From Hellea sp. (GTDB taxonomy: Bacteria > Pseudomonadota > Alphaproteobacteria > Caulobacterales > Maricaulaceae): DNA of 64,000 nucleotides. Positions within the stretch are counted from its first letter, which is position 1, and each line of letters starts with the position of its first letter. The position numbers and the translations under genes were made by a program. The stretch lies in assembly GCA_020629545.1 (NCBI GenBank), contig JAHDDC010000008.1:18592-82591 (forward strand). Direction: 5' to 3'. The notes below the pieces were generated by a model, which saw only the letters and a list, made by a program, of their open reading frames with translations, searched no databases and had not been told where the DNA came from. Below, one piece after another: positions 28,718-31,813 of this stretch.

Positions 28718-29248
28718 TTAGAAATATTCCTTCAAAACCCGGTCCAGACGGCGCTGAACAAGCGCTGTGAGTTTTTGCAATCCGTAAAGAGACAAGATTG
28801 ACCGAGCTATTTCTTCGCGGCCCATAAATTCGTCGGCGCAGCGAAGCTCAAGAACAAGTGCGGCAAGTTCAGAAAGCGGAATCTCTGCAAAGCTTCTGGT
28901 GCCTAGCGCGCGCATGTTGACTTTCTCCTGATCCGCAAGCCGAACGATCCAACAGCGCGGATCGCTGTCATCTTCGACCTCGGTATCATTTTCTCGCTCG
29001 ATGATAACGGTATTTTTCTTGGCTGCGTCCAATATAACCCGCTCAAACCGCGATCTTACAGAAGCTGTAATTTTCATAAGACCTCCGGCCTTGGCATAGG
29101 TCTGAAACAGATGCAGGGCCTGCATTGGACCCTGAGCCGCTAAAATTTCACTCATTCCGTCCATAAACTGTACCGGACTAGCTCTTCGCGGATCTGCTAC
29201 GGGACGGGTTTGCCATTCTTGATATGGATTGAGTTTTATGTCCAACAT
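28718..29248 (-). CDS. Hypothetical helical protein
   Basis: I do not recognise this 176-residue protein. It is soluble, mostly helical, with an acidic patch at about residues 88-96 and a C-terminal helix pair (EIARSILSLYGLQKLTALVQRRLDRVL). I start it at the ATG at 29248 (MLDIKLNP), with AGGTG 8 bases upstream, rather than at the TTG 39 bases before. It converges with the DoxX-like gene, and the 277 bases upstream separate it from the leader peptide gene on the other strand. Confidence 0.7.
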   Translation of the reverse strand: MLDIKLNPYQEWQTRPVADPRRASPVQFMDGMSEILAAQGPMQALHLFQTYAKAGGLMKITASVRSRFERVILDAAKKNTVIIERENDTEVEDDSDPRCWIVRLADQEKVNMRALGTRSFAEIPLSELAALVLELRCADEFMGREEIARSILSLYGLQKLTALVQRRLDRVLKEYF

Positions 29249-29457
29249 CGCCTCATTCACCTGGGTAGAGTCTCTTTTTGGGAACAAATAGCGTTAATAT
29301 ATTATGATTTGGTGAAACCGACTCAAGATAAACGTGGAAATTCCGCTGAAATCAACCCAATCGCTCGCCTTAAACGATAGAAAATTCAATAAATTTCGCT
29401 TAAAATACGCATAAATATCAATAACATAAGCTTCTGTTCATCACCCGTTAATACATG

Positions 29458-29486
29458 TTGACTTCGAAAAGTGATTCATACATTAT
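29458..29486 (+). promoter_or_regulatory. Candidate sigma-70-type promoter for the leader peptide gene
   Basis: TTGACT and CATTAT lie 17 bases apart about 40 bases before the peptide ATG, in an AT-rich gap. A second possibility is the extended -10-like TGCTATAAAT at 29505-29514, but it would place the start of transcription at the ribosome binding site. Only sequence likeness supports either. Confidence 0.3.
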
Positions 29487-29525
29487 TAACCCAGTAGCAA
29501 ATCTGCTATAAATTTGGGGTGTTCA

Positions 29526-29591
29526 ATGCGAGAACTAACCACAGAAGAAATCGAAGTCGTCGTAGGCGGCTCTTTAAAAGTCGAAGTTTAA
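29526..29591 (+). CDS. Tiny double-glycine leader peptide (possible exported signal peptide)
   Basis: This 21-codon ORF is too short for the ORF track. It encodes MRELTTEEIEVVVGG followed by only six residues, SLKVEV. The first 15 residues match the class II bacteriocin/RiPP leader pattern (M-[RK]-E-L-T-x-x-E-[IL]-x-x-V-x-GG), which is cut after GG by C39-peptidase ABC exporters. GGGGTG lies 5-6 bases before the ATG and a strong terminator follows 29 bases after the stop, so it is a stand-alone transcript. No exporter is in the window. A six-residue product is too small for a normal bacteriocin, so a secreted signal is my inference; a sensor kinase gene follows directly. Confidence 0.65.
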   Translation: MRELTTEEIEVVVGGSLKVEV

Positions 29592-29620
29592 TATATCGTC
29601 GATTTTATAAATTGAACATT

Positions 29621-29645
29621 AGGCCCTTCACGGGCCTTTTTTTTT
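29621..29645 (+). terminator. Rho-independent terminator after the leader peptide gene
   Basis: A 6-bp GC-rich stem (AGGCCC / GGGCCT) with a 5-nt loop runs into nine T residues. It isolates the peptide transcript from the kinase gene, or lets only part of transcription read through. Confidence 0.88.
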
Positions 29646-29683
29646 GGCAAAAATCATTAATGTTTTCGATCTAAACTCTATTT

Positions 29684-31813
29684 ATGTTTAGAGCCATAAT
29701 ATATGTTTTTATTCTTCTCGGAGCGTTAATCGCGATTTCCCAAGATGCGAAAGCGGCTAATGAAAAAATAGTAGCTATAGCAAATGGTCTAATAGATTCG
29801 AAAGCCCGACTTGAAGAGAAAAGCAATTCAGATTTAAACGCCCTAAATGAAGCAATTCTCGATGACAAATTTATAAAAGCATCGTCGATATTGAAAGAAA
29901 CTGATGCACCCATAGACTTACTGGAGACCTATCATTTCGTCATAGAGCTGAGTATCGATGATGTAAACTCGGCGGAGGAGATATCCTGGCTAGAAAATTG
30001 CGTTGCGACAAAACCTCCGATTCTAGCCCACAACTGTGCTACTGGGCTCGCGAAGCCTCACATTATTAACAACGAGCGATCGGCAAGCATGCAATGGGCG
30101 ATAAGGTCCGCTGAAGTCTTAAGTGAGATGGAATATGGTACCAAGGAATATTGGCTCGCATCCTATAAAACATCCTACTTACTCTACATGTCTTATCTTC
30201 TTGATCGAAATTTGGAAAAAACTCTAAACGCTGTCACCGAATTCGTGGAAGCTAAAAACCAGGTTGGTATATCCACAGCCATATATCCGATTATAAATAA
30301 CATTGTCCTTCTAGAAAACAAAATTGAAGGCCCAGAAAAAGCTTGGGAAACACTTCAAGGTATTAACATCAACTTGGATGGCCTAGACAAGGCTGACAAA
30401 GAGATCATTCTGTATACCCTCGGAAAAGTTGGGACAGAGGCAAATCAATATGAAAAATCAATTGGGTACTTGAATGAACTTAACCGAACCGTAGAACACC
30501 CGGGCTTGAAAAAGGCCCATTACGGTTATTTTGCTCTCTCACTAGCGAAAACGGGAAAAACCAAACGTGCAGAAGACGTTATTTTAGAGAGTAGGCAATA
30601 TTACAAAGACGGCTTCACAGGGCAGTCTGGCGCTCGAATACTTCAAGCTCAGAAGGAACTATCCTTGAGCAGTAAAGATTTCAAACAAGCCTACGAACTG
30701 GAAAAAAAGATTTCCGAAATCAATGAAGCTGTGTGGGTCAAAACATTATCTGATGATCAAAGACGGCTGGCATCTGAGTTGGAAGCATCAAATGAGAAAC
30801 TTGCAAGTGAGCAGCAGCGCCTCAAGTTGGAATTAACGATAACTGAAGAAAAAGAAAAAACAGCCAAACTCGTGATCGCGAGTCTTATCGCATTCGGACT
30901 TTTATTGTTGACTCTGGTTATCTTTTTAAGACGATCTCGCGATACAGCACTCGCGCTCAACAACAAGCTCGAAATCCAAAACGCGCAAATTGTGAAATCC
31001 CAAGAAGAACTTATTATCGCTAACGACCTCGCAAATGCCGGACTTCGGGCAAAAGAAAAATTCATTGGCGTCGTCGGCCATGAACTGCGGACGCCTTTAA
31101 ATCCCATCATTAACATGGCGCGGATTTTAGCCGACAAGGCCGACAATCCATCAGACAAGGAATCCCTTGAGGCCATTTATGATGGCGGACAGAGATTACA
31201 CATGACAATCGAAAATATGATAGCCGTCAGTAATGAGACCTACTTAGTTTACCGGGAGAAAACCGACCTTGTTCTGATGGTCTGCAATATTATGGAAGAT
31301 CGGAAAAAACAGCTTATCGACAAGAAGGCAGCCGCGCAAAAATCAGGATCCGACTTCACATTCAAAGTATCAAAGTCCAAAGACTTCCCCGATACATTCT
31401 CGACCGGGAAAATCATGCTGGACCGCGTGCTTATCAACATTATCGATAATGCCATCAAGTTTACCAGCACAGGCCATATTCATATCAATTTATTGCTCGA
31501 CGCGGATCAACGCGCTCGCATCGAAATTCTCGATACAGGTTCCGGAATTTCCAAACAGGCTATTCGGGAGATCTTTGAACCTTTCAGCCAGGAAAATGAA
31601 GGCCTGTCCAGATCCCATGAAGGGTCCGGCCTGGGTCTGACCGTCGCGCAAAAATATCTTAAGGCGTTAAATGGACGAATTGAGATAGAGAGTGAACTTG
31701 GCGCGGGAACCTTGGTGGCGGTTGTTATCCCCGAAACATTCAATGAAAATAAAGTTAAACTCGCCAAAGATGACGACGCCCAAGGCGATATCAATTTCCG
31801 AAAATCAGCCTAA
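29684..31813 (+). CDS. Orphan sensor histidine kinase with periplasmic TPR-like domain
   Basis: The 709-residue protein starts with a signal peptide or anchor (residues 1-24), then a roughly 360-residue helical, TPR-like periplasmic region, a membrane helix (about 395-414), a coiled coil, a HisKA domain with phospho-acceptor His466 in VGHELRTPLNP, and a HATPase domain with N box LINIIDNAIKFT, G1 DTGSGIS and G2 GSGLGL. There is no attached receiver and no response regulator gene nearby. The ATG has no clear ribosome binding site. The short distance to the leader peptide gene suggests, but does not prove, that the periplasmic domain senses that peptide. Confidence 0.92.
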   Translation: MFRAIIYVFILLGALIAISQDAKAANEKIVAIANGLIDSKARLEEKSNSDLNALNEAILDDKFIKASSILKETDAPIDLLETYHFVIELSIDDVNSAEEISWLENCVATKPPILAHNCATGLAKPHIINNERSASMQWAIRSAEVLSEMEYGTKEYWLASYKTSYLLYMSYLLDRNLEKTLNAVTEFVEAKNQVGISTAIYPIINNIVLLENKIEGPEKAWETLQGININLDGLDKADKEIILYTLGKVGTEANQYEKSIGYLNELNRTVEHPGLKKAHYGYFALSLAKTGKTKRAEDVILESRQYYKDGFTGQSGARILQAQKELSLSSKDFKQAYELEKKISEINEAVWVKTLSDDQRRLASELEASNEKLASEQQRLKLELTITEEKEKTAKLVIASLIAFGLLLLTLVIFLRRSRDTALALNNKLEIQNAQIVKSQEELIIANDLANAGLRAKEKFIGVVGHELRTPLNPIINMARILADKADNPSDKESLEAIYDGGQRLHMTIENMIAVSNETYLVYREKTDLVLMVCNIMEDRKKQLIDKKAAAQKSGSDFTFKVSKSKDFPDTFSTGKIMLDRVLINIIDNAIKFTSTGHIHINLLLDADQRARIEILDTGSGISKQAIREIFEPFSQENEGLSRSHEGSGLGLTVAQKYLKALNGRIEIESELGAGTLVAVVIPETFNENKVKLAKDDDAQGDINFRKSA

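Follow-up and report, generated by a model that had tools for sequence, protein, structure and literature searches.

What does a gene of only 21 codons do directly ahead of a sensor histidine kinase? The pair lies in a 64,000-nucleotide stretch of a Hellea sp. genome (the window), on contig C141 of a draft assembly (G000; 3.59 Mb, 92% complete, 7% estimated contamination). An earlier note on this DNA had described a 21-codon open reading frame (ORF) with a double-glycine (GG) leader, a six-residue core and its own ribosome binding site, then a terminator and, 38 bases further on, a sensor kinase with a large extracytoplasmic helical domain. All of these features were confirmed (Table 1). The ORF reads MRELTTEEIEVVVGG up to the predicted GG cleavage point and SLKVEV thereafter, without the Pro-Ile core motif that is common in the family, and its match to ComC is weak and below cut-off (E=0.008). 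The terminator stem (29621-29637) is followed by eight T's, an arrangement found once against 0.2 expected in shuffles, and 38 nt separate the T-run from the start of the kinase gene. The promoter call is a weak one, because two such matches were seen against 1.4 expected. Upstream of the peptide ORF, on the opposite strand, is a 189-aa ORF (28718-29287, minus strand) with no Pfam match and a weak resemblance to the C-terminal 150 residues of an NCBIfam model, ‘anti-phage protein ProA’, the match (E=3.5e-7) falling far short of the model's cut-off. PADLOC returned generic ATPase similarities only.

Table 1. Features of the peptide and kinase genes, numbered along the window
Feature	Position	Strand	Basis
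Possible sigma-70-type promoter, TTGACT-17-CATTAT	29458-29486	+	Motif scan
Ribosome binding site GGGG, 6 nt 5′ of ATG	29516-29519	+	Sequence
Predicted pheromone precursor ORF, 21 codons	29526-29591	+	Sequence; counterparts in 41 family genomes
Double-glycine leader MRELTTEEIEVVVGG	29526-29570	+	Near-invariant across 38 aligned precursors
Core SLKVEV, predicted mature signal	29571-29588	+	Analogy with tandem-repeat precursors
Intrinsic terminator between peptide and kinase genes	29621-29645	+	Sequence; also in 31/38 relatives
Sensor histidine kinase, 709 aa, predicted receptor	29684-31813	+	ORF, domain matches, alignments
N-terminal signal peptide of kinase, residues 1-24	29684-29755	+	Sequence by inspection
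Extracytoplasmic TPR solenoid, residues 25-395	29756-30868	+	AlphaFold2, Foldseek, profile match, invariant residues
Asn206, invariant, in TPR solenoid	30299-30301	+	Sensor alignments
Transmembrane helix, about residues 396-418	30869-30937	+	Sequence by inspection
HisKA domain, phospho-acceptor His466	31049-31231	+	E=1e-11; H466 invariant
HATPase_c domain	31415-31735	+	E=1e-23

NCBI taxonomy places Hellea in the Robiginitomaculaceae, order Maricaulales, and the conservation in relatives that the earlier note had called for was found within this family. A counterpart of the peptide ORF is present in 41 of 137 species genomes, several of which are drafts; 38 of these precursors came from the leader pattern and C39 loci, and the other three (G010, G135, G076) from sensor-profile and pattern searches. 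A pattern built on the leader alone hit one site apiece in 17 of the 137 genomes, and its reversed control hit none. The ORFs found in this way have 20-26 codons, apart from one of 50, and downstream of each, on the same strand, lies a long kinase-family ORF, laid out as in the window. Overall, a sensor of the same family lies downstream in 40 of the 41 genomes (37/38 and 3/3), paired one to one, and the sole unpaired case (G120) sits at a contig end. The GG motif, whose disruption would have counted against the earlier note, is intact in 40 of the 41 precursors and is Gly-Ala in the remaining one. The three nearest homologues of the window's kinase, all from genomes of the same genus, have a tiny GG ORF at the same position: two precursors consist of MRELTMDEVEVVTGG followed by MPPITE or GTVVVL, and the third has MRELTMDETKVVVGG ahead of five RGVVL copies separated by two-residue spacers.

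The pair appears to be confined to this family. The leader pattern matched 50 stretches among 84,980 species genomes, and every ORF followed by a kinase belonged to the Robiginitomaculaceae; the remainder were mostly larger bacteriocin-like ORFs without a kinase. Leader patterns run over 398 genomes of the order found no cassette outside the family, where their matches were bacteriocin-like or other ORFs unaccompanied by a kinase. Sensor matches better than E=1e-45 were, within the order, likewise limited to the Robiginitomaculaceae (30 genomes, 29 with a GG ORF and one leaderless), and no GG peptide accompanied the weaker sensor homologues of other families. Named records in the family belong to Hellea, Robiginitomaculum, Litorimonas and Algimonas, and four of the carriers are marine species in culture: Hellea balneolensis (DSM 19091, predicted core MPIIIDF), Litorimonas cladophorae (NPIVIDF), Algimonas arctica and Robiginitomaculum antarcticum (FPIDIEV). 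Distant sensor homologues in two other families of the order (f4 and f5; loci L217-L229) are fused to kinases and have no GG peptide, and many of them share a single conserved locus in which the same gene precedes them.

A GG leader implies an exporter with a C39 peptidase, and such a domain (PF03412) occurs in 69 of the 137 genomes. It exceeded the cut-off in all 17 of the genomes found with the leader pattern compared with 52 of the 120 others (p=5e-6), and in 12 of the 17 the exporter gene lies directly upstream of the peptide. In the wider set, 33 of 38 cassettes have a C39 exporter gene 135-280 bp upstream of the peptide. The catalytic Cys, His and Asp are present in 68/68 exporters. The cassette exporters form a single clade, and its sister clade includes the exporters of genomes in which the pair is detached from the exporter (G000, G002, G004, G009, G010). 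The C39-type exporter sought by the earlier note does exist in the window's genome, where the only one found (C54:10854-12935) is on a different contig from the peptide, together with an HlyD gene. The coordinates given in the earlier note span peptide and kinase and do not include it. That it serves SLKVEV is a guess, given its separate location, its place in the sister clade and its full-length HlyD partner. No GG precursor was found beside it. The single-contig genome G010 is divided in the same way: it has one C39 exporter and, apart from it, a three-copy precursor. The kinase that the earlier note called an ‘orphan’ belongs, in most relatives, to an exporter-peptide-receptor cassette.

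The cassettes have a further gene in common. In all 33 that bear an exporter, a stub of HlyD lies directly upstream of the C39 gene (e.g. L088, L095, L126, L146; 32 were detected by profile and the 33rd, L126, was read by eye), giving the gene order stub-exporter-peptide-receptor. The stub is roughly 65-90 residues long and comprises a tail, a transmembrane segment and a short C-terminal tail. It matches HlyD residues 1-51, the cytoplasmic tail and transmembrane segment (E=4e-16 against the HlyD of G000), and in many HlyDs there is a second match, of its C-terminal end to residues near 390-405. The entire periplasmic adaptor between these two regions is missing. Among the detached-type exporters, those of G000, G002, G004 and G010 have a full-length HlyD partner (406-412 aa) and that of G009 a 167-aa form. 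Because the stub has no periplasmic adaptor, release into the periplasm is probable for the cassette exporters; the simplest reading is that they would be freed from the TolC route and deliver to the compartment in which the receptor domain sits. Larger GG substrates also occur in the family: at L140 (G010:C1:1896000-1912000), and at position 10333 of L080, several microcin-type GG-leader ORFs lie beside an HlyD-C39 exporter. The window's genome itself has a second GG ORF of 33 aa (MRELSEDEIKAVVGG followed by PQNKSKNPEFPLLQNQAD) at C150:54089-54150, minus strand (L208, C150:50000-60000), beside which no exporter or kinase was recognised.

Sequence comparison separates the precursor into two parts under different constraint. 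Across 38 precursors the leader is near-invariant, with R2, L4, E8 and G14 present in 38/38, whilst the core is variable, commonly x-P-[IV]-[IV]-[IV]-x-x, with xPI[IV][IV]xF as a typical form, and 5-7 residues long, with position 1 the most diverse. Values of pN/pS are 0.19/0.55 for the leader and 0.49/0.74 for the core. The earlier note had read the six residues of SLKVEV as an unusually small core; the length is correct, but the family comparison makes it normal there. Eight precursors carry 2-5 tandem cores: RGVVL x5, LPADIEW x4, FPIIIG x3, TPIDIEL x3, FPIDIEV x2, IPVIDF x4, RSIKT x4 and GPVIIET x3. Between neighbouring repeat units of these eight we counted 55 synonymous and 0 nonsynonymous changes, compared with 6 synonymous and 16 nonsynonymous in comparable spacers (Fisher, p=5e-12), and the short peptide itself is therefore under selection. 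The first unit starts right after the GG in every case except GPVIIET (one extra Ser), and the last ends at the stop codon in every case except RGVVL (followed by KD). Since the units span the interval from GG to stop, the unit can be taken as the functional product and, by analogy, SLKVEV would be the functional product of the window's precursor.

One genome retains the core in a different form. In G072, where no C39 domain was found, the kinase is kept and is preceded by the ORF M-R-GPIIIL-stop and a terminator-like repeat; this remnant (L214, G072:C29), whose ATG-CGT runs straight into the core-like GPIIIL, precedes the sensor match by about 230 nt. Read from the sequence, it is a case in which the core is retained and exactly the leader is lost, in a genome without C39 exporters found. 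Divergence of cores and sensors is also visible over short distances: three relatives with kinase domains 91-95% identical have sensors only 64-75% identical and the cores LPIVIEN, FPIVITD and FPILINN. A partial Mantel test gave no signal of covariation between core and sensor beyond the divergence of the kinases (r=-0.02, p=0.62).

The ectodomain of the putative receptor is predicted to be a TPR solenoid. Some 370 helical residues between the signal peptide and the transmembrane helix have no Pfam match. An AlphaFold2 model of the window's sensor domain, built on a 30-sequence alignment (mean pLDDT 88.8), is an all-helical solenoid with a long terminal helix, and a profile search of the window's sensor matched consensus TPR proteins (E=2e-12). 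In Foldseek, the closest solved structures to this model were the Rap protein of phage phi3T with its pheromone, LGN, and Rap with CSF, after which ranked NprR and AimR; for the sensor of L147 (Litorimonas-type) the best match was RapH, with several Rap structures interspersed with other TPR proteins among the top matches. The TM-scores against Rap and other solved structures were mostly 0.4-0.6, and therefore indicate similarity of fold and are not proof of homology. The pheromones of Rap, NprR and AimR have 5-8 residues. In known TPR-peptide complexes, Asn residues hold the backbone of the ligand; the equivalent of Asn206 is invariant across every sensor aligned, which makes it a candidate ligand contact. 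The window's kinase has a signal peptide and a transmembrane segment, and the N-termini of the relatives resemble its own. A receiver domain is present in 23 of 28 family kinases scanned; the window's kinase has none, and no LytTR response regulator (ComE/BlpR) was recognised adjacent to it within the window.

The upstream regions point to a regulator of the signal gene. The CtrA half-site TTAACCAT (PMC3692519) occurs upstream of 17 of 38 predicted pheromone ORFs (e.g. L098, L099, L100, L120), compared with 4 of 155 background regions (the other upstream intergenic sequences of these loci; p=1e-10), and TTAA-N7-TTAA in 10 of 38 compared with 5 of 155 (p=4e-5). Neither box is exact in the window's own upstream region. 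These data suggest that CtrA controls signal production in many family members.

Taken together, the window ORF is very probably a peptide-pheromone precursor, with the neighbouring kinase as its receptor. We infer the following scheme for cleavage, secretion, receptor binding and output to a regulon. The precursor, with its own ribosome binding site and terminator, would be made from its own short transcription unit. A C39 peptidase-ABC exporter would read the leader, cut after Gly-Gly and move the core out of the cytoplasm, as expected from the established biochemistry of the exporter class and from the gene neighbourhood; in the window's genome the exporter on C54 would act in trans, whilst in most relatives its gene is just upstream. 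Multi-copy precursors would be cut again in their spacers by a further protease. Exporters with an HlyD stub probably release the peptide to the periplasm, from which 5-7 residues may cross the outer membrane via porins. Binding of the peptide in the groove of the TPR solenoid, which faces outward, would alter kinase activity; phosphate would pass to the receiver domain that most of these kinases carry or, in the window's case, to a separate partner. The divergence of cores and sensors among relatives with near-identical kinases resembles that of known pherotypes and may reflect specificity.

Among other readings is an autocrine periplasmic signal, which would report the state of export or of the envelope to the cell that made it and would not be shared with other cells. 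The HlyD stub without its adaptor fits this view, since delivery would probably be to the periplasm, the compartment in which the receptor domain lies. We nevertheless consider it unlikely, as diversification of cores and sensors at the species level is typical of signals shared between cells, and periplasmic retention would be incomplete because a length of 5-7 residues is close to what porins admit. A very small bacteriocin or microcin, controlled or sensed by the kinase, is much less probable still: class II microcins have the same leader type and exporter, and larger microcin-type GG ORFs exist in the same family (G004, G010), but the kinase-paired form is restricted to one family whilst bacteriocin-like matches elsewhere have no kinase, and the one-to-one pairing and the tandem copies of an invariant unit also argue against a toxin. 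A class II microcin was rejected on the 5-7-residue core and on the absence of any immunity gene seen between peptide and kinase.

The order of short ORF, terminator and gene, with the terminator kept in 31 of 38 relatives, is that of an attenuator, in which movement of the ribosome on a leader peptide decides termination upstream of the kinase gene. This is highly improbable and largely refuted, as the amino acids of the leader are conserved whilst its codons vary, the repeat units change synonymously only, and no regulatory codon run is present; nor would attenuation account for a GG leader with an adjacent C39 exporter in 33 of 38 cassettes. A lone 21-codon ORF would be weak evidence, but a chance ORF with a GG-like N-terminus beside an unrelated kinase is refuted by conservation and has a negligible probability, given the result of the reversed-pattern control and the same pairing in 40 of 41 genomes.

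How does the predicted pheromone system compare with known ones? In the streptococcal ComABCDE and BlpC systems a GG pheromone precursor, a C39 peptidase-ABC exporter and a receptor histidine kinase are likewise encoded together. Those pheromones are longer; their receptor has a membrane sensor of several helices and is paired with a response regulator of the LytTR type. The family described here has instead a core of 5-7 residues and a Gram-negative host, its kinase is HisKA-type, often with its own receiver, and multi-copy precursors occur; in place of a multi-helix ComD/HPK10-type sensor the window's kinase has a signal peptide, a TPR ectodomain, one transmembrane helix and HisKA/HATPase_c domains. 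The receptor fold recalls the RRNPP family (Rap-Phr, NprR-NprX, AimR), in which a TPR solenoid reads a short linear peptide of 5-8 residues encoded next door. However, RRNPP receptors are intracellular (PMC10075063). The peptides that they read are re-imported and come from precursors that are not GG/C39 substrates, whereas the TPR domain here follows a signal peptide, is joined to a transmembrane helix and forms part of a histidine kinase. Because a defining feature of each fails, the receptor type for ComABCDE and the receptor location for RRNPP, we file the system under neither. Our best reading is peptide-pheromone two-component signalling in which export is ComABCDE-like and the receptor fold is RRNPP-like but outward-facing. 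Class II microcins and GG bacteriocins of the colicin V type share the leader type and exporter class, but have large cores, full-length HlyD and no paired kinase. Yeast alpha-factor-like precursors also hold several identical signal units with spacers; this is an analogy only, as sequence, export and receptor are unrelated.

Gram-negative C39 exporters or GG substrates have been tied to regulation, not killing, for HetC of Nostoc and for the biofilm GG proteins of Synechococcus (PMC10986499, PMC4997328); we found no paired receptor kinase described for either, and HetC has no known substrate. A 2024 paper considers that the C39 exporters of Gram-negative bacteria probably have roles beyond the export of toxins, ‘despite the absence of evidence’ (PMC10986499). 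In the open-access full-text literature we found no description of such a peptide-kinase-exporter system. The present family groups a predicted substrate, its exporter and the predicted receptor in one cassette, and the repeat units show what the mature signal would be; the old idea of Gram-negative peptide pheromones becomes testable with synthetic hexa- and heptapeptides; it also provides some 40 natural predicted ligand-receptor pairs for studying the recognition of short peptides by a TPR domain and its relay across a membrane. Signals of the Pseudomonadota are said to be typically small molecules made by enzymes, oligopeptides being the rule in Firmicutes (PMC10075063). If our reading is true, bacteria thought to communicate mainly via such molecules also have a peptide language. 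The wider proposal seems to us somewhat better than an even prospect: a self-contained alphaproteobacterial language of species-specific linear pheromones of 5-7 residues from single- and multi-copy precursors, with C39/HlyD-stub delivery to the periplasm, an outward RRNPP-like TPR-histidine kinase, CtrA-controlled production, and joint loss of leader and exporter in one genome to leave a leaderless signal gene.

Finally, the detached pairs differ in their surroundings. In three genomes of the same genus (L098, L099 and L100, from G009, G004 and G002) the pair follows a mutL-like frame, whilst in the window it is sited elsewhere, adjoining a tRNA-Leu, both neighbours being named from their sequence. 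Peptide and kinase thus seem to move as a unit.
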